Made by a program: the position numbers and the translations under genes
The notes under the pieces: generated by a model
The model's input: the letters and a program-made list of their open reading frames with translations, nothing else
What the model was told of the DNA's origin: nothing
The model's database searches: none
DNA from: an uncultured SAR86 cluster bacterium
GTDB lineage: Bacteria; Pseudomonadota; Gammaproteobacteria; Magnimaribacterales; D2472
DNA: 64,000 nucleotides
Reading direction: 5' to 3'
Assembly: GCA_902602595.1 (NCBI GenBank)
Contig: CACKRJ010000001.1
Span: forward strand, 1-64,000
In this document: piece by piece, positions 13,813 through 34,426 of the stretch
How the letters are laid out: each line of letters opens with the position of its first letter
Numbering within the stretch: position 1 is the stretch's first letter

Positions 13813-15374
13813 TCGCTTTCCTTTAAAATATACTTCATTACTTTTCCTGCTGCATTTGTAGGCAATGCTTCAACAAATTCTATCTCTCTTGGAACTTTAT
13901 AATTTGCCATATTTTCTTTTGACCATTTAACCAATGACTCTTTTTGGAGTTCATAATTTGGTTTTAATACAACAAATGCTTTGGCAACCTCTCCCATTCT
14001 CTCATCCGAAATACCAATGACTGCTGCTTGGGAAATTGCTGGGTGATCGCATAAAATATTTTCAATTTCAGCAGGATAAGCATTGAATCCTCCCACAATA
14101 AACATGTCCTTGCTTCTGTCTGTAATTTTAATGTATCCATTTTTATCAAGAATTCCTATATCACCGGTATGCAACCAGCCCTCTTTATCAATGGCTTCTT
14201 GGGTAGCTTGCGGATTATTAAAATATCCTTGGGTAATGTTATAACCTCTCACCAAAATCTCTCCGGGTTCCCCAACCGGTACTTCTTTGTTATCTTGATC
14301 AACGCATTTCACCTCTACACCTTCAATAGCACAGCCTGAGGTTGTAGCAATAGTTTCATAATCATCATTAGGTGTGCACATAGTAACCACTCCTGTGCTT
14401 TCTGTTAGTCCATAAGCAGTAATGACAGTTTCAAAACCCAATCTTTCTTTCATGTCCTTGATGAGTTGAACAGGTATAGAGGCAGCGCCTGTCACTCCTA
14501 ATCTTAGAGAAGAAATATCTAAAGTATCTATCAATTGACTGGTAAGAATTGACTGGTAAAGAGTCGGAGGCCCTGGCAGCATAGAAATTCTGTGCTCATT
14601 GATTATCTTCATAATCTTATCTGCATCAAATAATGGGCATGGATAAGCTGTTGTCCCTTTCATTATCGAAGCTAGCCAACCGGCCTTGTAACCAAATGTA
14701 TGAAAAAATGGATTTACAATTAAATATTTGTCATTTTCATTTAAACCAATATAAGAGGACCAATAATCGAATACTTTAATATTTTGTAAATGCGAAGATA
14801 TAACTCCTTTAGGTTTTCCGGTTGTGCCAGAGGTAAAAATAATATCAGCTATATTATTTTCGCTGACTTCAGGCAATTGAACATCCAAAGCTTGTTCTTT
14901 GATATCTTTGAAAGATTGATTTAATTCTTTTGATATAGTTATATCGAGTGGAATTTTGTGTTGCAAATGAGGAAGTTTTTCATTTTCTATTAACTCAAAG
15001 TAATCAATACCAAGAAAAGTTTTTACAGTAAACAAAATTTTTGCTTCTGAATTATTTAAAATGTAAGCAGCTTCCTTTCCTTTCATTCTTGTGTTAATCG
15101 GCACTAAAACTCCACCAGCCTTATGAATGGCAATTGCTGCTAGAACCCATTCATTCATATTTGGAGCCCAAATCGCTACTCGATCACCTGGTAAAATACC
15201 GAGATGTATTAAGTAACTGGCGATGTTAGTTGATAAGCTATCTAGATCTGCAAAAGATAAGGTTTCATTATCAGAAATTAATGCAGGCTTAGAGGAAAGA
15301 TTCTTAGCTTGAAATTTGATTAGTGAAGGTATGGTTAATTTGTCTAATGATTTCAATTTAATATCCTCGCCCAT
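13809..15374 (-). CDS. Acyl-CoA synthetase, FadD3-like (candidate HIP-CoA ligase)
   Basis: A 521-residue ANL-superfamily ligase. The AMP-binding P-loop is FTSGTTGKPKGV, the A5 motif is TAYGLTEST, A7 is GWLHTGD, the hinge lies at KITDRSKDMFIVGG, and the C-terminal catalytic Lys is in AAGKVMKY. In actinobacterial steroid degradation FadD3 activates the C/D-ring propanoate HIP. The presence of ipdA, ipdB, ipdC-like and fadA6-like genes on the same strand makes that the best guess, but the substrate cannot be read from sequence. The start overlaps the preceding regulator gene by 22 bp. Confidence 0.83.
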   Translation of the reverse strand: MGEDIKLKSLDKLTIPSLIKFQAKNLSSKPALISDNETLSFADLDSLSTNIASYLIHLGILPGDRVAIWAPNMNEWVLAAIAIHKAGGVLVPINTRMKGKEAAYILNNSEAKILFTVKTFLGIDYFELIENEKLPHLQHKIPLDITISKELNQSFKDIKEQALDVQLPEVSENNIADIIFTSGTTGKPKGVISSHLQNIKVFDYWSSYIGLNENDKYLIVNPFFHTFGYKAGWLASIMKGTTAYPCPLFDADKIMKIINEHRISMLPGPPTLYQSILTSQLIDTLDISSLRLGVTGAASIPVQLIKDMKERLGFETVITAYGLTESTGVVTMCTPNDDYETIATTSGCAIEGVEVKCVDQDNKEVPVGEPGEILVRGYNITQGYFNNPQATQEAIDKEGWLHTGDIGILDKNGYIKITDRSKDMFIVGGFNAYPAEIENILCDHPAISQAAVIGISDERMGEVAKAFVVLKPNYELQKESLVKWSKENMANYKVPREIEFVEALPTNAAGKVMKYILKESE

Positions 15375-15808
15375 CGATAATCATATTTATAATACTTTAA
15401 GCCAATGGATGACTCTGAAAATCTTACACCAGGAAGAGAAGAGATTTCTTCATACAATACTTTAGAAAGCTTTGTTACGTCTTCAGCAAGAATAAACACC
15501 ATGAGATCATGGCGACCTATTAGCGTTGAAACAAATCTCACTTCATTCATTTTTGAAAGAGATTTTGCAACAGCATCCTTAGATCGAGTTTCAACATCAA
15601 GTCCTACAAAAGCTAAAGAAGGATTTTCCATGCGATTTATATTATTTATAACAGAGATTTTGATAACTTTATGTTTAATAAGTTTTTGAATTCTATTACG
15701 AACAGTGCCTTCAGTTACTCCTATAACCTTAGCCATTTGATTATTTGACATTCTTGCATCCGCGCCAAGCAATTGAATTATTTTCTTATCAGTTTGATCA
15801 AGCTTCAT
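15353..15808 (-). CDS. Lrp/AsnC-family transcriptional regulator (second of a tandem pair)
   Basis: About 151 residues: an N-terminal winged HTH (MKLDQTDKKIIQLLGADARM, then NNQMAKVIGVTEGTVRNRIQ as the recognition helix) and a C-terminal RAM/AsnC ligand-binding domain (GLDVETRS, FVSTLIGRHDLMVFI). I start it at the ATG at 15808, which overlaps the upstream regulator's stop by 11 bp; an upstream in-frame ATG at 15868 would add a non-homologous 20-residue leader. It is a likely local regulator of the catabolic array, but the effector is unknown. Confidence 0.85.
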   Translation of the reverse strand: MKLDQTDKKIIQLLGADARMSNNQMAKVIGVTEGTVRNRIQKLIKHKVIKISVINNINRMENPSLAFVGLDVETRSKDAVAKSLSKMNEVRFVSTLIGRHDLMVFILAEDVTKLSKVLYEEISSLPGVRFSESSIGLKYYKYDYRWARILN

Positions 15809-16265
15809 TTGCAAAAGGAGTCCAATCAGTTTCGAATTTATAAACATTTGATGCAATTGCAGGAGCAATACTCTTTATGCCAACTATGGATGGCAAAGTC
15901 TCATCTAAGAAGATTTTTGTTTCTGTTAAGCTTGAAGTAGCGCAAAGTATTTCAATATCTTGTATTCCACTGACAACATTTACACTAAATACTTCTTTTT
16001 GCTGTGAGAGAATCGATGCAACTTCCTCCAGTTTATCACCCTGAACTCTTATACCTATTGGTAACAAATAGTCATAACCGCATTTTTCAAAATCAGCGAT
16101 TGCAATAATTTTGCAAAAACCTCCATCAATAATTTTTGCAAGCCTTTTACTTACAGTGACCTCATTTACAGATAATTTTTCTGCGATAAATTTTGCTGGT
16201 GCGCGACCATCCTCTTCTAATATTTTAAGAATTTTATGATCAAGATCGTCAAGTGAAAGTTTCAC
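15798..16265 (-). CDS. Lrp/AsnC-family transcriptional regulator (first of a tandem pair)
   Basis: 155 residues with an N-terminal HTH (LDDLDHKILKILEEDGRA; recognition helix near NEVTVSKRLAKI) and an AsnC-type sensing domain (LLPIGIRVQGDKLEEVAS, FSVNVVSGIQDIEILCAT). It starts with GTG at 16265. It is distinct in sequence from its tandem partner, so the pair may form homomers or a hetero-oligomer. It lies directly after the split Rieske oxygenase genes (22-bp gap). Confidence 0.85.
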   Translation of the reverse strand: MKLSLDDLDHKILKILEEDGRAPAKFIAEKLSVNEVTVSKRLAKIIDGGFCKIIAIADFEKCGYDYLLPIGIRVQGDKLEEVASILSQQKEVFSVNVVSGIQDIEILCATSSLTETKIFLDETLPSIVGIKSIAPAIASNVYKFETDWTPFANEA

Positions 16266-16287: not shown

Positions 16288-17160
16288 TTAAAATTCTCTT
16301 TTTTCTAAGTCTAAACCAGGGGGTACATTAGCTCGATTGACTAAGAATTGGCCATACCATTTTCTTAGCTTCCTAAGAGGGCCATCACCATCACATACGA
16401 CTGGATCAGGTATATAGATTTTATTTTCCCAAATTGCAACATCTTGGCCAAAAGCATAATTGTTGGCATCGACATATCCTTGAATGAAAGCTGCCTCGTC
16501 TTCAGCCGACATACCTGGAACTTTTTTAACCATAACACCAAAGTTAATTTGAAATGATGTCAATGTTAATGGAATGTGAGTTACGGCAAGCCTGCTCTCC
16601 ACCTTCATGCCGTCATGAACTGCACTCATATAAGTTGTCATATAAGCTGGGCCTTCATAAATTGCTTGTGAAAAAAGATCCCGCCCAAGAATAGGACTAT
16701 CTGCTGTCATTTCTTGCGTATAAGTATGATCCTTGGCTTCATTCCAGAAGCCTTCGAATGGAGCCTGGTGCACAGGACCAAAATGACCTTTATCTGCCAT
16801 ATTATCTATTAATTCACGGCAATTATTTTTTACTAAAAAACTGGCCATTCCATAGTCTGACCACTCATCTGAGTAACACTCATCTATTTTTTTTGGCAGA
16901 TAATCAGGATCTCCCTTTTCAACATCATGCCAAACTAAAACCATTTGATTTCTTTCTAATATGGGCCAAGATTCCCCTTTACCAACATCAATACTAATTC
17001 CATCATTGGTTCTAAGAACTTTAATTTTTCTGTTAAATCCAAATATATTTTTAGTCTCTCCAACAGGAAAATCTCTCTGATGACCAAGCGCAAACCAACC
17101 TCTAGGGAATCTATCAGGAAGGTCGCTGGTTAAAACATCTTCTTTAAAAACTGAGCTCAT
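16288..17160 (-). CDS. KshA-like Rieske oxygenase catalytic subunit lacking its [2Fe-2S] site
   Basis: 290 residues. The C-terminal catalytic domain of a 3-ketosteroid-9-alpha-hydroxylase-like oxygenase is intact: NCRELIDNMADKGHFGPVH gives the bridging Asp123 and iron ligands His126 and His131, and FGQDVAIWENK gives the third ligand Asp240. The N-terminus still aligns with the start of KshA (DLPDRFPRGWFALGHQRDF) and with the later strand MVLVWHDVEKGDP. The segment between, which in KshA carries CxH and CxxH, is missing and replaced by a short linker. No cluster can bind here. The gene overlaps by 17 bp a separate gene for a complete Rieske domain, so electrons are probably supplied in trans. 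The steroid substrate is inferred from context. Confidence 0.85.
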   Translation of the reverse strand: MSSVFKEDVLTSDLPDRFPRGWFALGHQRDFPVGETKNIFGFNRKIKVLRTNDGISIDVGKGESWPILERNQMVLVWHDVEKGDPDYLPKKIDECYSDEWSDYGMASFLVKNNCRELIDNMADKGHFGPVHQAPFEGFWNEAKDHTYTQEMTADSPILGRDLFSQAIYEGPAYMTTYMSAVHDGMKVESRLAVTHIPLTLTSFQINFGVMVKKVPGMSAEDEAAFIQGYVDANNYAFGQDVAIWENKIYIPDPVVCDGDGPLRKLRKWYGQFLVNRANVPPGLDLEKREF

Positions 17161-17593
17161 TTATTCTTTCTCCATTAAAATCTGCAGAATTGCCATCTCT
17201 ATCAAACCAAACATAAATTGAGCCGTCAAGTTCGTCCACTTCCCACGAACGAGTAACTGCCTTTGAAGGAATCCTCTTTGCATATGGAACTTCATTACAT
17301 GGGCCCTCTCCAGACCATCGCCAAGCATGGAAAGGACACCTAATTCCATCTTCCTCCACCTCTCCACAAGCCAATGATGCACCCATATGTTTACAATATA
17401 AATCTAAAGCAGATAATCGATCATCTTTGCCTCTCCATACAACGATTTGCGTAGGAAAATCATCCACTTGTATGGCCTCCATTGAGCCTATATCATTGCT
17501 ATCTGCAACCTTGTACCATCCGGTCTTCAATTGAGCTTTCCTTGGATCTCTCTGCTCTGGTAAATCAGGCGCTATGAGCTCTTGATCAGTCAA
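17144..17593 (-). CDS. Stand-alone Rieske [2Fe-2S] domain protein, partner of the truncated oxygenase
   Basis: 149 residues. The Rieske motifs are intact: Cys67-x-His69 (CKHMGASLACG) and Cys86-x2-His89 (CPFHAWRW), spaced 16 residues apart. The domain continues through VPYAKRIPSKAVTRSW and SIYVWFDRDGN, very like the N-terminal half of KshA, and then stops; there is no catalytic domain. I accept a TTG start at 17593 because GGGAG lies 6 nt upstream. It overlaps the catalytic gene by 17 bp, which would keep the two at similar levels. It probably acts as the electron-transferring subunit of a hetero-oligomeric oxygenase. Confidence 0.85.
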   Translation of the reverse strand: MTDQELIAPDLPEQRDPRKAQLKTGWYKVADSNDIGSMEAIQVDDFPTQIVVWRGKDDRLSALDLYCKHMGASLACGEVEEDGIRCPFHAWRWSGEGPCNEVPYAKRIPSKAVTRSWEVDELDGSIYVWFDRDGNSADFNGERINELSF

Positions 17594-17679: not shown

Positions 17680-18567
17680 TCAATCGCTTGATTCTTGATT
17701 GAATTTAGATACTACCTCTTCTGCCATTGAAAGCTGGCTAATATCCTTTGAAATAGGGACTAACAGAGCATCTGTTGCGCCCAACTCTTTAATTTCAACT
17801 AAAAAATTGTATAGGTCGTTTTGATTTCCAGAAAATCCTGCTATTTCAGATAAATTTTTTGCAAGGTCTTCGCCCATCCATCCCAAATATCTTGTTAAGT
17901 GAGTCTTAATATCATCCCTACCCGTATCTCCTAATCCAAACCAGAAACTTGTTATTAGTCTTGGAGAAATTTTTTTCTGACTAAACGCCTCTTTTACTCT
18001 GTTAAACGAATCATTAATTTCTTTTAGATCTGCATTAAATGAAAAACCTGCTAATCCCTCTGCAAAATCAGCTGACATGGACATTGCCTTTGGTCCAACT
18101 GCGCCTGCTAGAATTTGAGGTCCAGCCTTAGAAAAGGTATTTGGGCCCATTTCTTTGTGATAATCTTTCGACCAAACTGACTGCATGGTTTTCACATTTT
18201 TTGCAAGTGTTGCCCATCTTCTATCTGACCAATTGGAATTAATGGCAGTATAGTCTTCTTCTCTTCCTCCGACACCAACACCAAGAGTGAATCTGCCCTC
18301 TGCAAGCAAATCAATTGTTGCAAATTGTTTAGCGCTAAGGATAGGATTATGCATTGTTAGAATAGACACCGTTGCAATAATCTCTACTCGATTAGTCCAA
18401 GCGGCTACGGCACTTAAAGTAGAAATAAATTCAGGATTTGGAAATAAAATTCTCTCTCCAAGAGCAATATGAGACCAAGGACCTGTATCAATTTTTTTGG
18501 TCCATTTTTCTAGATCTTTTCTTGTAAGATCAGGCTCCATGACCGGGAGGGTCATGCCAATTTTCAT
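17680..18567 (-). CDS. LLM-class (luciferase-like) F420/FMN-dependent oxidoreductase
   Basis: A 295-residue TIM-barrel flavoprotein of the luciferase-like monooxygenase superfamily. It opens [14 protein letters not shown], with conserved [36 protein letters not shown] and the end-region [11 protein letters not shown]. The cofactor (FMN or F420) cannot be decided from sequence. It overlaps the HsaF-like gene by 4 bp. It may hydroxylate or Baeyer-Villiger oxidise a pathway intermediate; its role is unknown. Confidence 0.83.
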
Positions 18568-19580
18568 GACTTAGATTTTTGTTTTATTAAATCAAGTGCA
18601 ACATCGACAATCATGTCCTCTTGACCTCCAACCATTTTTCTTTTACCTAACTCAACCAAAATTTCTCTGGTATCTAAGTTATAGGTTTCAGCTGCTGACT
18701 CGGCGTGCCTTAAAAATGATGAATAAACTCCTGCGTAACCTAAAGTTAAAGTTTCCCTATCTACTCTTACAGGTCTGTCTTGCAAAGGCCTAACCAACTC
18801 CTCTGCCGCATCCATTAATTTAAATAAATCTGTCCCATGCGACCATCCAAGCCTATCAATAGCTGCAATAAAAACTTCAAGTGGAGCATTGCCTGCACCA
18901 GCTCCCATTCCAGCCAAACTTGCATCAACACGATTTGCTCCATTTTCAACTGCAACAATGGAGTTAGATACGCCCAATGATAGATTATGATGAGCATGCA
19001 TGCCTGTTTGAGTTTTTGGATCTAGTGTATCTTTAAAAGCTTTAAACCTTTCAGCGACATCTTCCATACTTAATGCGCCTCCTGAATCTACAACATAAAC
19101 ACATTCAGCTCCATATGACTCCATAAGCTTAGCTTGATTAGCTAGATTTGATGGTGAGGTCATATGAGACATCATCAAGAAACCAATAGTATCCATTCCT
19201 AACTCTCTTGCAAATTCTATATGTTGTTTTGAAACATCTGCCTCTGTGCAATGCGTTGCAACCCTTACAGATCTAACTCCAAGATCCCAAGCCCACTTGA
19301 GGTCTTCTTTTATAGCAATACCTGGCAAGATTAAGGTAGTAAGCTTTGAATAATTCAAATGTTCCGCAACAGCGCCAATCCATTCTTTATCTGTATGAGC
19401 GCCAAAACCATAGTTAAATGAAGATCCTGCCAACCCATCACCATGAGCCACCTCGATAGCATCAACTTTTGCATCATCCAGGGCTTTTGCAATTTCAATT
19501 ACTTGATCAATTCCATATTGATGCCGGATAGCATGCATACCATCTCTTAATGTCACATCTTGAATATATAACTTTTTCAT
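18564..19580 (-). CDS. hsaF: 4-hydroxy-2-oxovalerate aldolase (HsaF/BphI type)
   Basis: A 338-residue class II pyruvate aldolase of the DmpG/BphI/HsaF family. It splits 4-hydroxy-2-oxo acids to pyruvate and an aldehyde. The N-terminus has the family [16 protein letters not shown] with the catalytic Arg-Asp pair. The metal His cluster is [11 protein letters not shown], and the C-terminal DmpG communication domain is present. It overlaps the acylating aldehyde dehydrogenase gene by 4 bp; these two proteins form a channelling complex. The hsa name reflects the steroid-type context; other meta pathways use the same enzyme. Confidence 0.93.
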
Positions 19581-20500
19581 GAATTTAACTTTATAAGCTC
19601 ATGAGCTGTTCCCATTGCGGCTGAAGTCATGATATCTAAATTTCCTGCGTATGTAGGAAGATAGTGACCAGCTCCTTCGACTTCAAGAAAAATTGAGGCT
19701 TTTAAACCTTCAAATTCACCATATCCAGGAATGGAACAAGGGTTATTAGAGCCAAATCTTTCAAATTGAACCTCTTGTTTCAATCGATAGCCCGGTACAT
19801 AAGATTGAACTCTTTTAACCATTGACTCAATGCTTTCTTTAACTAATCCCTGATCAGCAGGATCACACAAAGTAAAAACAGTGTTTCTCATCAACAAGGG
19901 TGGCTCTGCTGGATTTAATACAATTATTGCTTTTGCTTTGTCTGCACCGCCAACCTTTTCGAGTCCAAGAGTCGTAGTCTGAGTAAACTCATCAATATTT
20001 GCTCTTGTTCCTGGCCCTGCAGACTTAGAAGAGACTGATGCAACTATCTCAGCATATTTCACACTAGATACTTGATTTACTGCAGCAACCATTGGAATGG
20101 TTGCTTGACCTCCACATGTAACCATATTTACATTTTGTTCTTTTAAGTGCTCAGATAAATTTACAACTGGAACGCAATATGGCCCAATTGCAGCTGGAGT
20201 TAAATCAATCATCTGCTTTTTATCTTTTACAATTAAATCATGATGAGTTTTATGCGCGCCTGCTGAAGTGGCATCAAAAAATATTAAGGTATCTTGATAC
20301 TCCGGCATATGCATAAATTCCTCTAATCCATCTGAGGAAATTGGTATATTTAAGGATTTTGCCATAGCAAGGCCCTCTGAGTCAGGATCGATTCCAATGA
20401 CACCATTCAATGATAAATAATCAGAGGTATTAATAATTTTAAGCATTAAATCTGTTCCAATGTTTCCAGATCCTATAATTGCGCATTTTGTTTTATTCAT
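19577..20500 (-). CDS. hsaG: Acetaldehyde/propionaldehyde dehydrogenase, acylating (HsaG/BphJ type)
   Basis: A 307-residue CoA-acylating aldehyde dehydrogenase. An N-terminal Rossmann motif [12 protein letters not shown] is followed by the catalytic Cys129 in MVTCGGQAT and the C-terminal GYRLKQEV. It converts the aldehyde channelled from the HsaF-like aldolase into acyl-CoA. It overlaps hsaF by 4 bp and lies 2 bp from the hydratase gene. Length is typical. Confidence 0.94.
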
Positions 20501-20502
20501 AA

Positions 20503-21288
20503 TTAAATAAAATTGATTTCACAGGTTCCAACACCTTTAAGATTCATTCTAAATTTATCTCCAGCTTTTGCAGGTTCTAATGGCACCAATGAGCCAGATA
20601 AAATAAATTCCCCTGTTAGCAATGGTATATCATATTCACCTAAGGTATTAGCTAGCCATGCAACGGCTTCGGCGGGATGTCCTTGAACTGCAGAACCTTT
20701 TCCTGAAGAGAGAAATTCATCATTTTTAAAAACTTCAACCTCTAATTCATCCATTGCAAATTGGTTTGGGGTGGCTGCGCCCTCACCTAATACAAAAATT
20801 CCACAAGATGCATTATCTGCAATAGTATCTTGAATCTTAATTTTCCAATCATCTATTCTTGAATCAACTATCTCGAAGCAAGGAATAATTTTTTCTGTTG
20901 CCGCAATAACATCCTCCTTGGTAATACCTGGTCCATGAAGATCTTCTTTTAAAATGAAAGCAATTTCAGCTTCAGCTCTCGGTTGTATTAGGTATTGTGA
21001 GATTGAAAAATTTGATTTATTTTTCACTTGCATTGTATTTGTTAAAAAGCCGAAGTCGGGTTGATTTACGCCAAGCATTTCTTGAACAACCTTGCTTGTT
21101 ACTCCAATTTTTTTACCAATAACTTTATCTCCCTCAATCTCTCGATGAGAAAGAAATTTTTTAGAAATCTGATATGCATCATTGATGTTTATTTCAGGAT
21201 ACCTTTCAGTCAAAGGCTGAATCATTGATTGCTGTTTTAATGATGAAAATAACTCAAATGCGATATCATCAATAGTGCTAGGTTTCAT
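20503..21288 (-). CDS. hsaE: 2-hydroxypenta-2,4-dienoate hydratase (HsaE/MhpD type)
   Basis: A 261-residue fumarylacetoacetase-fold hydratase that hydrates 2-hydroxydienoates after meta cleavage. Conserved family segments are [17 protein letters not shown] (with the active-site Lys), [11 protein letters not shown] (metal Glu pair), FEIVDSRI and [12 protein letters not shown]. It sits in an hsaD-hsaE-hsaG-hsaF order with 2-3 bp gaps, a complete lower meta-cleavage module. Confidence 0.92.
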
Positions 21289-21291
21289 ACT

Positions 21292-22101
21292 CTAAGAATT
21301 TAGAAAATTTATACAAGCATTATTAAACACAGCTTCCTGCTCAATCATGACCCAGTGTCCACATTGGCTAAAGAGCATTATTTGAGAATTTGGACAACCA
21401 TTGCCTATTTTCATTGCTCCTGAAACTGGAATGAACTGATCATTCATCCCCCAGAAAGCAAGCACTGGCTGAGTAATTGATGGGAGATCCAATTCCATAT
21501 TGGGTATATCCATTGTTGCCATTACTTGAGTATTCATGAGTGGCAAAATTTCCATTCTCTCATCAATCATCTCTTTAGTTACTATCGACTTATCATATGG
21601 AAATAACTCTAGCAATCCTTCTATTTTCTCTTGATCCATATCACCACCTAAAAAATCAGAAAGTAATTTTTTAATTCCTGGCATTGAATTGTAAACTTCA
21701 AAATCTTCTATGCCTCCAGGAGCCATTAAAATTAGCTTTTGTACTCTTGCAGGATGATCTAGACCAAGACCAATAGACAATGCGCCGCCTAAACTATTTC
21801 CCAATAACGAAAATTCTTCAATTTTTAAGGCATCAATAAGCTCAATTATTTTTTTGTTGAAATATTGTAATGAATATATTTCATTATCTGGCTTACTGGA
21901 AAATCCATACCCGGGAAGATCAGGTAAAATTACTCTAAAACCCGCATCTCTAAGAGCAGAAAAATTATTTTTAAAATTTGTGTGTCCAGATGCGCCTGTT
22001 CCACTTCCATGAAGCAAGACAACAACGTCGCCATCACCCTCATCATAATAATGGAATTTAAAATCGTCATTGACCTCAATAAACGATCCTTCTGGAATCA
22101 T
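21292..22101 (-). CDS. hsaD: Meta-cleavage-product C-C hydrolase (HsaD/BphD type)
   Basis: A 269-residue alpha/beta hydrolase. The oxyanion segment is HGSGTGASGHTNF, the nucleophile is Ser103 in GNSLGGAL, the acid Asp lies in FWGMNDQFIP, and the His is in QCGHWVMIE. The HGxGxGASG motif is typical of BphD/MhpC/HsaD C-C hydrolases that cut ring-fission products. It is flanked by the hydratase gene and the P450 gene with 3-bp gaps. The DSHA specificity of HsaD is inferred from the cluster. Confidence 0.9.
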   Translation of the reverse strand: MIPEGSFIEVNDDFKFHYYDEGDGDVVVLLHGSGTGASGHTNFKNNFSALRDAGFRVILPDLPGYGFSSKPDNEIYSLQYFNKKIIELIDALKIEEFSLLGNSLGGALSIGLGLDHPARVQKLILMAPGGIEDFEVYNSMPGIKKLLSDFLGGDMDQEKIEGLLELFPYDKSIVTKEMIDERMEILPLMNTQVMATMDIPNMELDLPSITQPVLAFWGMNDQFIPVSGAMKIGNGCPNSQIMLFSQCGHWVMIEQEAVFNNACINFLNS

Positions 22102-31813: not shown

Positions 31814-32569
31814 TTATTCTCCAAAAATTGTATTGCGAATACCTTGAGGATCAAGAACCTCTCTTATCAAAACAAGTTCCTCACTTGATGGCATAGATGT
31901 AATACTGTCTGATTGGATTGCAATCTTAAATCCAGTGTTTGCAATAACATCATCTACACTAACATTTGGATGTAAAGATAGTAACTGCATGCAGTTATTT
32001 TTTCCATTAAAGTCAAAAACACCGAGATTTGTTACAACCCTCTTTATTTCAAATATTCCATTAGATAATTCTTTATTCTTGTAGCCCATTCCAGACACCA
32101 TATCAACTTCACCCTCTACAAAAGTTTTTTTAGAATGATTTGGAATAAAAATTGAGTTTTTATGGTTAATAGAATTTCCGGGAAATCCTCTAACACCCAG
32201 CAACTGAATTTTTGGAGAATCATAGTTACCAATTACGCTTATGTTTGTTTGTCCAAAAGAATCTAGTTGAGTTGGGGTAACCATTGCATGTCTTTTTCCT
32301 CCCCAAAGATTTTCAAATACACGGCTATAACTCATATATCCTTCAACTTGATCTGCTGATGAATCTCTTTTACCCATTGGAGCAGGTTCTGAGATCAAGT
32401 ATGTTTCTCCATCGGTCATCATTAAATCTGGATTATGTGTAAGTTTTGCTAAGCCTGCAGCTATTCTTGGAATTAGGCCAATGCCAGTTGCAAGAATTTC
32501 TCCATCATCCTGCCAAGCTTTTGAGGCTTGGCTTATACATATCTCTGCTAATGAAATAGAGTCTGACAT
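31814..32569 (-). CDS. ipdB: IpdB, beta subunit of COCHEA-CoA hydrolase (CoA-transferase family)
   Basis: A 251-residue family I CoA-transferase beta-like subunit: ILATGIGLIPRIAAGLAKLTHNPDLMMTDGE is the recognisable N-terminal part (positions about 24-54), with LLGVRGFPGNSINHKNS later. The Glu-containing ENG-type motif of true CoA transferases is not seen, in agreement with IpdB, where the AB pair acts as a ring-C hydrolase. It is 1 bp from ipdA and 2 bp from the hydratase gene. Confidence 0.85.
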   Translation of the reverse strand: MSDSISLAEICISQASKAWQDDGEILATGIGLIPRIAAGLAKLTHNPDLMMTDGETYLISEPAPMGKRDSSADQVEGYMSYSRVFENLWGGKRHAMVTPTQLDSFGQTNISVIGNYDSPKIQLLGVRGFPGNSINHKNSIFIPNHSKKTFVEGEVDMVSGMGYKNKELSNGIFEIKRVVTNLGVFDFNGKNNCMQLLSLHPNVSVDDVIANTGFKIAIQSDSITSMPSSEELVLIREVLDPQGIRNTIFGE

Positions 32570-32570
32570 T

Positions 32571-33440
32571 TTAAAATTGTGGTAAAGGTATTTTTGTTAT
32601 TTCTTCAGTGCCGCCAACAGATTCTATATAGTCTTGATGGGTTTTATTCATGTATTTATCAGCATAATCATTGAAAGACTTTGCTGAATCTGAATATTCT
32701 TTTAAATGCTTGGTATCAAATCCATAGCTTGGAGAGCAAGATGTTGGATGTGCGCCACAAGGTGAATGAACCACTCCGGTTACAAGACTTCTCTCAAATC
32801 TATTGAATATGGCTCCATCCTTGCCACCAAGCTCTTCGGTGGATAATAACTCTTCTGATGATACAAAAGTCTTCTCAGCCGCTCTAGCAAAAAGATCATC
32901 AAAAAAAGGATCTGGACCGATAATCTGCGTGTTTCCTTTTTCATCAGATTTATTGACGTGGAGCAATGCTACGTCTAATTTGATTGCTGGCATGGCAATG
33001 AAACTCTCTTTATCTTTGTATGGTGAAGTTACAAATTTTAATTCTGGATTATGAGTTAAAACATCTGTGCCAAATCCAACTCTCGTAGGTAAAAATGGAA
33101 GATTCATAGCAGCTGAACGCAGGCCCCATTGAAGCATGCCTTCATCTAACTCCATCACCTCAATTTCTTTATTTTGACGAGCTTTTCGAAAATGAGCTTC
33201 GAGAGGAATGACATCCAAAGAAACAAATCCAAAAATAAGTTTTTTTATTTTTTTATGGGCGCATAGTAAACCCACGTCAGGACCACCGTAACTTACAACT
33301 GTTAAATCTTTTATATCTGATTGACAAATCTCTCTTACTAAAGACATGGGTTTTCTTCTTGCACCCCATCCTCCTATACCAATAATGGTATTGCTCTGAA
33401 GATGATCTAAGACATCTTTATGAGTTAATACCTTATTCAT
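32571..33440 (-). CDS. ipdA: IpdA, alpha subunit of COCHEA-CoA hydrolase (CoA-transferase family)
   Basis: 289 residues of the CoA-transferase alpha family. The signature GIGGWGARRKPMSLVRE (about residues 21-36) is the diagnostic segment I associate with IpdA. Glu100 in ELDEGMLQWGLRSAA is a good candidate for the catalytic Glu described for IpdA. With IpdB it opens ring C of the steroid-derived CoA ester. This gene pair is the best single marker that the array handles steroid C/D rings. Confidence 0.86.
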   Translation of the reverse strand: MNKVLTHKDVLDHLQSNTIIGIGGWGARRKPMSLVREICQSDIKDLTVVSYGGPDVGLLCAHKKIKKLIFGFVSLDVIPLEAHFRKARQNKEIEVMELDEGMLQWGLRSAAMNLPFLPTRVGFGTDVLTHNPELKFVTSPYKDKESFIAMPAIKLDVALLHVNKSDEKGNTQIIGPDPFFDDLFARAAEKTFVSSEELLSTEELGGKDGAIFNRFERSLVTGVVHSPCGAHPTSCSPSYGFDTKHLKEYSDSAKSFNDYADKYMNKTHQDYIESVGGTEEITKIPLPQF

Positions 33441-33445
33441 TTATT

Positions 33446-34348
33446 TTATGCCTCAGGCATATTAAACTCATGACCCCAATGACTTGGTGCTGGCGAATAA
33501 GTTGTTTCATGACTGTCCCAATCAGGCTGAATGCCGTCATATCCAAATTCAAGCATAAATCCACCAGGCGTCATCATATAGAAAGAAACCATATTATCAT
33601 TCATGTGCCTTCCAAGAGTTGAGGAGATATGGATATTATTTTCAATTGCTCTGTCCATGGCATCAACTACTTGCTCAGCAGTCTCCACTTCAACCATTGC
33701 ATGCACAAGTCCAGATGGCGGTGTTGGAGCTTGCATCATTGCAACAGTGTGATGGCGAGGATTATCACAATGCATGAAATACAAAACTGATTCAGGATCA
33801 TCGGGGTCTGGGGAAAATCTCATGCGCATAATATCTGAATCTCCAAAGTTCATTACCTGCTTATAGAAGTCATGAGCAGCTTCAACCTCTAATGTTCCAA
33901 AAACTAAATGGCCCAAGCCCAATCCATGAGTAACAAATTTAGAAATATCTTGGGAGGACTTGAACTCATTTGTATCGATGCTTCTTCCATAAAAAAGTTC
34001 AAGTGTGTTTCCTGCTGGATCATCAAAACTTAAAAGCTCCTCTACACATCTAACCTGAGCTAACTCATCACTTTCGATTGCAACTTCAATTCCTAGATTA
34101 CTAAGCTCTTTTTTTGCTTCTTCAAAAGCTTCCTTATTTTCTAGTTCGAATCCACCCCTCGCATACCTATCATTATCTCCTTTTTGCACCTGAAACCTGA
34201 ATGGACTTTCATCCATTCGGAGGAATAAATTATTCTCATCGCTCAAATCATTATTCTTCATTAGCCCAACTACATCTCGAGCATATGCCTCCCAGCTTTC
34301 TAGATTGGTTGATTCAATTAAAATATAACTTAGAGATTTAATTTTCAT
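33446..34348 (-). CDS. hsaC: Extradiol ring-cleavage dioxygenase (HsaC/BphC type)
   Basis: 300 residues in two VOC modules, as in BphC/HsaC. Iron ligands by position and context are His147 (GLGHLVF), His216 (VHAMVE) and Glu267 (MLEFGYDG); His200 (PRHHTV) matches the catalytic His. I begin at the ATG at 34348 because GAGG lies 7 nt upstream of it; another in-frame ATG is four codons earlier. HsaC cuts the catechol formed from ring A of steroids (3,4-DHSA). It is the first gene of the 25-gene minus-strand array. Confidence 0.9.
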   Translation of the reverse strand: MKIKSLSYILIESTNLESWEAYARDVVGLMKNNDLSDENNLFLRMDESPFRFQVQKGDNDRYARGGFELENKEAFEEAKKELSNLGIEVAIESDELAQVRCVEELLSFDDPAGNTLELFYGRSIDTNEFKSSQDISKFVTHGLGLGHLVFGTLEVEAAHDFYKQVMNFGDSDIMRMRFSPDPDDPESVLYFMHCDNPRHHTVAMMQAPTPPSGLVHAMVEVETAEQVVDAMDRAIENNIHISSTLGRHMNDNMVSFYMMTPGGFMLEFGYDGIQPDWDSHETTYSPAPSHWGHEFNMPEA

Positions 34349-34426
34349 TGCATGCCTCATATTTAAAATTTCTTACGATTACTAAATAACTATGTAAAAA
34401 ATATATTTAACTCTTTATGTTTTCAT

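Follow-up and report, generated by a model that had tools for sequence, protein, structure and literature searches.

A putative Rieske oxygenase of the KshA lineage divided between two overlapping genes in SAR86 marine bacteria

The gene pair and its operon

The window, by which we mean the whole stretch of 64,000 nucleotides analysed here from an uncultured SAR86 cluster bacterium (contig CACKRJ010000001.1, positions 1 to 64,000), contains two genes between which the domains of a KshA-like Rieske oxygenase are divided. The Rieske gene (product P0002) lies upstream and the catalytic gene (product P0001) downstream, and their reading frames overlap (Table 1). Both open reading frames exist where an earlier note on this DNA, made from the letters alone, had located them; that note left the strand unsaid, and translation identifies the minus strand as the coding strand for both, with plus-strand translations full of stops.

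Table 1. Features of the locus in the window, followed by two further loci of the same genome
Feature	Position	Strand	Basis
Catalytic subunit P0001, 290 aa, KshA_C plus Rieske-domain remnant without cluster ligands	16288..17160	-	ATG start at 17160; Pfam
Lone KshA-type Rieske [2Fe-2S] protein P0002, 149 aa	17144..17593	-	TTG start at 17593; Pfam Rieske
Reading-frame overlap, 17 bp, 3′ end of Rieske gene over catalytic gene	17144..17160	-	
Rieske-domain remnant, P0001 residues 14-75	16936..17121	-	Homologous to both flanks of KshA Rieske domain
Junction, P0001 residues 55-60 (6 residues in place of KshA's 54)	16981..16998	-	Alignment to 2zyl
D123-x2-H126-x4-H131, bridging Asp and two His ligands	16768..16794	-	Correspond to D178, H181, H186 of KshA
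Asp240, carboxylate ligand (KshA D304)	16441..16443	-	Alignment to KshA
Cluster ligands C67-x-H69-x16-C86-x2-H89 of P0002	17327..17395	-	Translation; invariant in 10/10 rows, window included
P0002 residues 53 and 76	17435-17437 and 17366-17368	-	Alignment of split vs fused rows
Luciferase-like (LLM) flavin oxidoreductase	17680..18567	-	PF00296, 90.7 bits
HsaF-type aldolase and HsaG-type acetaldehyde dehydrogenase	18564..20500	-	TIGR03217, 585 bits (cut-off 286); TIGR03215, 436 (cut-off 282)
HsaE-type hydratase and HsaD-type hydrolase	20503..22101	-	TIGR03220, 354 bits (cut-off 408.8); NF045632 best, 183 (cut-off 400)
Cytochrome P450	22105..23454	-	PF00067, 237.6 bits; best PDB match CYP120 (2ve3), E 3.7e-44
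CoA-transferase pair	31814..33440	-	PF01144; 32571-33440 best PDB match 6co6 (CoA-transferase alpha subunit), E 3.6e-74
HsaC/BphC-type extradiol dioxygenase	33446..34360	-	TIGR03213, 263.5 bits (cut-off 366); NF045631 (HsaC), 252 (cut-off 450)
Accessory cluster: HsaA-like gene, fused KshA, two KstD-like flavoproteins	L139:4644-10222 (G000:C11)		
Third intact KshA-related oxygenase, 330 aa	L002:1447-2436 (G000:C3)		152 bits to KshA

To judge by gene content, the pair belongs to a conserved hsa/ipd-type operon for meta-cleavage, whose CoA-transferase pair we take to be IpdAB-like; SDR-like and beta-oxidation-like genes, named from sequence, also follow beyond the P450 on the same strand. The HsaD-type hydrolase matches a BphD-type structure (2og1, E 4.6e-44) and HsaD itself (5jz9, E 6.5e-44), and the extradiol dioxygenase has its best PDB match in 2zi8 (E 6.6e-61). 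Because matches to the HsaC and HsaD models fall short of the curated cut-offs, and models and structures from the biphenyl pathway score about equal to the steroid ones, Hsa and Ipd names denote gene type here, with no proven equivalence. Among the named close loci, the order P450-HsaD-E-G-F-LLM-Rieske-catalytic is kept as far as contigs extend, with the LLM gene in 26/27 and HsaF in 23/27, and the extradiol dioxygenase is present in 24 of the 26 genomes of the window's genus.

Several further features of the neighbourhood were recorded. Within the window's family, the LLM gene sits between HsaF and the Rieske gene; it was not found in two loci of family f3. The operon P450 is 69-98% identical among named loci whose contig reaches it. 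Two same-strand genes that follow the pair downstream (15353-16265) are presumably AsnC/Lrp-like regulators, and no such genes were found in L050, L053, or the f3 loci L145 and L146, whose contigs continue past the pair.

Two metal centres in two proteins

In canonical Rieske oxygenases, the alpha subunits form a C3 assembly that puts the cluster of one subunit near the catalytic iron of its neighbour. A canonical subunit carries both domains in one chain, whereas here they are encoded by separate genes in 27 of the 28 genomes with a short catalytic gene; in the 28th, the pair is interrupted by a contig end. According to Pfam and alignments, the metal-ligand inventories of the two proteins are complementary, with Rieske ligands in P0002 only and catalytic ligands in P0001 only.

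In P0002, the Rieske domain (residues 26-110, 74 bits) is the sole Pfam domain over its cut-off, with Rieske_4 as one extra weak match below it. The CxH...CxxH motifs of a canonical Rieske oxygenase are present, though in this partner protein, and the Cys67/His69 and Cys86/His89 that the earlier note had picked out are invariant (Table 1). Among solved proteins, three KshA sequences come closest (E 5.8e-31 to 3.5e-28; best 4qdf, 110.7 bits), followed by SxtT at 7.5e-11, with NdmA at 1.7e-8, and the segment CxxxPYAxxxPxxA that follows the cluster in KshA is kept. The best NCBIfam match, 4beta-methylsterol monooxygenase, reaches 39.5 bits, far under its cut-off of 600. An ordinary Rieske ferredoxin was considered for P0002 and rejected, as the Rieske ferredoxin CarAc scores 22.3 bits against the 110.7 bits of KshA.

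P0001 is recognised by Pfam as KshA_C at residues 76-272 (191.9 bits vs a cut-off of 23.3), with one extra weak match to VanA_C below cut-off and no Rieske match; its single NCBIfam match is at chance level. The best PDB match is KshA 4qdc (E 2.5e-43), the score to solved KshA is 151.8 bits, and all PDB matches at E<=0.001 are KshA chains. Against KshA 2zyl, residues 8-54 align to 12-58 and residues 61-283 to 113-347; the first stretch on its own is weak against 2zyl (i-Evalue 0.36) but aligns clearly once nearer fused relatives are used. The piece missing between them is the one that carries both cluster-ligand motifs, while the flanks of the Rieske domain are retained, which bears out the proposal that a cluster loop of some 50 residues had been removed from the catalytic subunit.

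P0001 also carries the 2-His-1-carboxylate site and bridging Asp of a Rieske oxygenase alpha subunit. The earlier note had listed Asp123, His126, His131, and Asp240 as mononuclear iron residues; all four are kept, and by alignment to KshA the iron ligands are His126, His131, and Asp240, whereas Asp123 corresponds to the bridging Asp178 rather than to a ligand (roles of D178, H181, H186, and D304 from the available part of PMC4064121). The four residues are invariant in 10/10 rows, window included, and D123, H126, and H131 also in 32/32 rows of an alignment of split and fused sequences. Conservation is uneven along the chain: 32 of 50 positions between residues 113 and 162 are invariant over 13 split rows, compared with just 3 of 31 in the remnant at positions 31-61. 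At the eight putative substrate-contact residues of Mycobacterium tuberculosis KshA, P0001 has the same residue at five (Q149, Y168, M174, F237, and W244) and differs at three (V176M, N240T, and N257V).

A P450 in the same operon, together with the fact that the Fer2 search saw no protein beyond small-ferredoxin and NqrF-size frames, would suit a scheme in which P0001 is a binding protein devoid of oxygenase activity and P0002 a ferredoxin for the P450 or another enzyme. The invariant iron ligands and bridging Asp of P0001, the conservation of its segment 113-162, and the adjacency of the two genes in 25/26 loci all speak against this scheme, which we regard as very improbable.

Some conserved positions distinguish the split proteins from their fused relatives. 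Among the 13 split catalytic rows, 112 positions are invariant, 22 of which are rare (<=20%) in 19 fused rows; one of these 22, G125 in D-x-G-H beside the bridging Asp, occurs in 13/13 split and 1/19 fused rows. In P0002, W53 and an extra Cys76 between the ligand motifs occur in 13/13 split and 0/17 fused rows. As a speculation, these split-specific residues may be candidate adaptations of a docking site.

Distribution across SAR86 relatives

Matches to P0001 of any kind were found in 34 of 107 genomes of the window's family, and a close orthologue in 26 genomes of three genera (L006-L031). The Rieske gene lies directly upstream of the catalytic gene in 25 of these 26 loci; in the exception, L029, the contig begins within the catalytic gene, and in L031, which is among the 25, the end of a contig truncates the catalytic gene. 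CP097973.1 (L053), which carries the pair, is a complete genome. Outside the family, the arrangement recurs in G155 and G162, which belong to a second family of the order, with identities of 50-51% and 40-42%; beyond them, a search of 203 genomes of the order gave no more close matches of this kind in other genomes. The same gene pair in related genomes, proposed beforehand as a check on the split, is thus found.

Within the window's genus, nine genomes have no visible pair. Five of them were followed (G019, G020, G022, G023, and G027), and in 5/5 the contig ends ahead of the pair or within it, with part of the Rieske gene still visible in G019. True absence of the pair from these five was rejected for that reason, and with five of the nine checked (the others being G021, G026, G031, and G038) the pair may be universal in the genus.

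Wider searches covered samples and are no census. Leaving the window's genome aside, 0/37 KshA_C matches in a sample of 398 genomes of the phylum lay in an open frame shorter than 300 aa, the smallest being 305, which marks the short catalytic frame as more than chance, and no split form was seen with the catalytic profile among 369 genomes of the class, a search that scored part of its first-look candidates.

Selection and ancestry

For 12 of 14 pairs with defined values, dN/dS was 0.017-0.076 in the catalytic gene and 0.036-0.154 in the Rieske gene, plus one value of 0.259 from a very close pair; several of the wider pairs lie near dS saturation. Purifying selection acts on both genes, and the Rieske half evolves faster than the catalytic half.

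The overlapping frames and the short catalytic protein could suggest an assembly error, a frameshift, or a decaying pseudogene of one fused KshA. Assembly error is excluded because the pair recurs across genomes of three genera, including a complete genome, and in a second family, amounting to 27 of 28 short-gene genomes. The low dN/dS values contradict decay, and simple fission or frameshift is ruled out because P0002 has a whole Rieske domain and P0001 the flanks of one, a sharing of the Rieske-domain base that goes beyond any frameshift and had already been argued from this single locus. This family of explanations was rejected, and we consider it refuted to near certainty. The overall reading of the earlier note holds in part: the split is genuine, ancient, and maintained by selection, and the pair occupies the same locus in relatives.

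Trees of 42 rows were obtained for each half. In both, one branch separates the 11 split rows from all others (support 93/86 for the catalytic and 98/94 for the Rieske half), and another does the same for the split rows together with a 13-row fused group, which includes the fused KshA of the window's own genome (93/97 catalytic and 92/71 Rieske, the latter moderate). The split rows stand beside this fused group, not within it; both trees are without actinobacterial KshA and carry long-branch warnings. The closest fused relatives are in G362, of the same class, with 49-50% identity in the catalytic part and 35-36% in the Rieske part. The anatomy, with a Rieske base in both proteins, and the congruent trees support an origin by duplication with complementary loss, as the earlier note had suggested. 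Such an origin would probably have been single, in an ancestor of the two pair-carrying families of the SAR86 order: a fused KshA-like gene would have been duplicated in tandem, after which the catalytic domain would have disappeared from the upstream copy, and from the downstream copy no more than the part of the Rieske domain that bears the cluster.

Proposed mechanism and electron supply

From the observed genes, ligands, conservation, operon, and selection, we infer a complex with a stoichiometry, an electron path, a substrate, and a history. P0001 would hold the 2-His-1-carboxylate iron, bind O2 together with a substrate resembling a steroid, and probably retain the usual ring-shaped trimer. 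P0002 would dock so that a cluster histidine meets Asp123 and electrons pass in trans to the catalytic iron, the role played in KshA by the neighbouring subunit. The best explanation as a whole, with a probability of roughly 0.7, is one functional Rieske oxygenase of steroid type spread over two proteins, with the history and electron path proposed here.

The normal electron partner of KSH is KshB, according to the available text of PMC4064121. In the 26 genomes of the window's genus (55-92% complete), searches with FAD_binding_6 and Fer2 saw no KshB-type reductase. FAD_binding_6 gave one match in 21 of these genomes and none in five, in frames mostly of 411-416 aa and also of 308, 388, and 448; the match in the window's genome closes an Nqr operon and reads as NqrF. 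Fer2 matches were confined to frames of 104-241 aa or of NqrF size (388-448 aa), with none in 2/26 and no further protein besides these small-ferredoxin and NqrF-size frames; the small Fer2 protein of the window's genome lies among isc genes and is presumably the Isc ferredoxin. KshB thus seems absent from the genus, within the limits of incomplete genomes. A Reductase_C-type ferredoxin reductase, which we take to be of the glutathione-reductase type, has one match in each of 22/26 genomes (G000:C13:11841-12077 in the window's genome). Electrons would come from a source other than KshB, probably this single ferredoxin reductase, with or without a small ferredoxin.

The same observations leave room for a looser partnership, in which P0002 is a mobile Rieske carrier that takes its electron from the ferredoxin reductase, moves to P0001, hands that one electron to the catalytic iron, and departs, one protein thereby doing the work of both the ferredoxin part of KshB and the Rieske domain of KshA. 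The missing KshB-type reductase, the frequent ferredoxin reductase, and the small size and faster evolution of P0002 agree with it; nevertheless, P0002 is far nearer to the KshA Rieske domain than to a Rieske ferredoxin and keeps the post-cluster segment, and the absences are soft in genomes of this completeness. We hold this arrangement to be fairly unlikely. A dual-purpose P0002, reduced directly by the general ferredoxin reductase yet docking in a socket of the P0001 trimer and replacing both the built-in Rieske domain and KshB, strikes us as unlikely; if true, the oxygenase iron would be fed from an exchangeable rather than a fixed Rieske centre.

Substrate and other KshA-type oxygenases

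For the two-protein oxygenase, the most probable reaction would be hydroxylation of the rings of a 3-ketosteroid or a closely related compound, and 9alpha-hydroxylation, a step that would feed the neighbouring HsaC-HsaG-type ring-cleavage genes, is likely. Steroid degradation by SAR86 has already been predicted (PMC4810484 and PMC11582366, as far as their available text goes).

The pair is not the only KshA-type system in these bacteria. Six of the family's 107 genomes have a fused KshA, namely G000, G032, G034, G036, and G106, which make up the five of 26 split-gene genomes that have both, and G027. In the window's genome (G000), the fused KshA scores 334.8 bits to solved KshA, compared with 151.8 for P0001, and lies in an accessory cluster beside genes that we take to be HsaA-like and, in two cases, KstD-like (Table 1). 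Across the genus, the third KshA-related oxygenase is found widely, usually in frames of about 320-344 aa; in several genomes a KstD-like gene lies no more than about 20 kb away. More distant KstD-like (46-51% identity) and HsaA-like (40-45%) genes are spread over the pair-bearing genera, so that a complete steroid pathway might not need the accessory cluster.

Given the fused KshA and the third oxygenase, the pair may act on another substrate or step. A straightforward KSH reading is also weakened by the searches of the genus, which showed no KshB-type reductase. It would then be a working split oxygenase but no 9alpha-hydroxylase, acting at another position or on another polycyclic or aromatic substrate, with the fused KshA or the third oxygenase providing the KSH step. 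Consistent with this, P0001 stands beside rather than inside the fused group that holds its own genome's KshA, three of eight pocket residues differ, that fused KshA has the KstD- and HsaA-like neighbours, the third oxygenase is widespread, and the ring-cleavage genes fit biphenyl-type models about equally. Set against it are an operon with HsaF/G-type, extradiol dioxygenase, and CoA-transferase genes, the presence of fused KshA in only 5/26 split-gene genomes, and the retention of all iron ligands and five of eight pocket residues; on balance, we treat this alternative as a genuine if minority possibility.

Significance and comparison with known systems

SAR86 bacteria are abundant in the sea and among the commonest lineages of the surface ocean. 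The pair amounts to a natural experiment that parts the cluster from the catalytic iron of a Rieske oxygenase in a very common surface-ocean lineage, and mixing the two proteins at will would give access to electron transfer between subunits, to what the bridging Asp does, and to the question of one-electron delivery. A 2024 comparison of SAR86 genomes assigned the kshA pathway set only to several genomes of one family (PMC11582366, available part). The split suggests that kshA searches may miss the enzyme in SAR86. In the accessible portions of PMC4810484 and PMC11582366, no mention of a split oxygenase was seen, the word "Rieske" being absent from the main text of the latter, and the open-licence literature yielded no earlier split oxygenase of the KshA lineage.

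The closest known system is KshA itself (2zyl and 4qdc), which is homologous to both halves, has the same ligands and bridging Asp, and shares an hsa-type neighbourhood. KshA is, however, one chain with KshB as its partner, whereas the SAR86 system comprises two chains, the catalytic one lacks the cluster piece, and searches of the genus showed no KshB.

The principle of a two-chain Rieske oxygenase is not new, with precedents in chlorophyllide a oxygenase of Micromonas (MpCAO) and in NdmC/NdmD. MpCAO is a two-polypeptide Rieske oxygenase active in vitro (PMC9615114, from the text available); it is eukaryotic and acts on a chlorophyll substrate, unlike the SAR86 halves, both of which match KshA, and it is set apart here by description. 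In the caffeine N7-demethylase NdmC/NdmD/NdmE, a cluster-less catalytic subunit likewise receives its Rieske cluster in trans, but there the Rieske domain is fused to a reductase and a GST-like protein is needed (PMC4408171, available part), whereas the SAR86 Rieske protein is a free KshA-type protein of 149 aa with the Rieske domain alone. Distance from the Ndm proteins was judged on PDB matches (NdmA), with NdmC set apart by description. The alpha3-alpha'3 enzyme NdmA/NdmB is also a hetero-oligomeric Rieske oxygenase; it is composed of alpha and alpha' subunits, each alpha subunit with both domains, as summarized in the accessible text of a review (PMC12445004). Within the open-licence literature, what appears new in SAR86 is a split within the KshA lineage, with a free Rieske subunit of the KshA kind, a catalytic subunit that has lost the cluster piece only, and fixation of this arrangement in the lineage.
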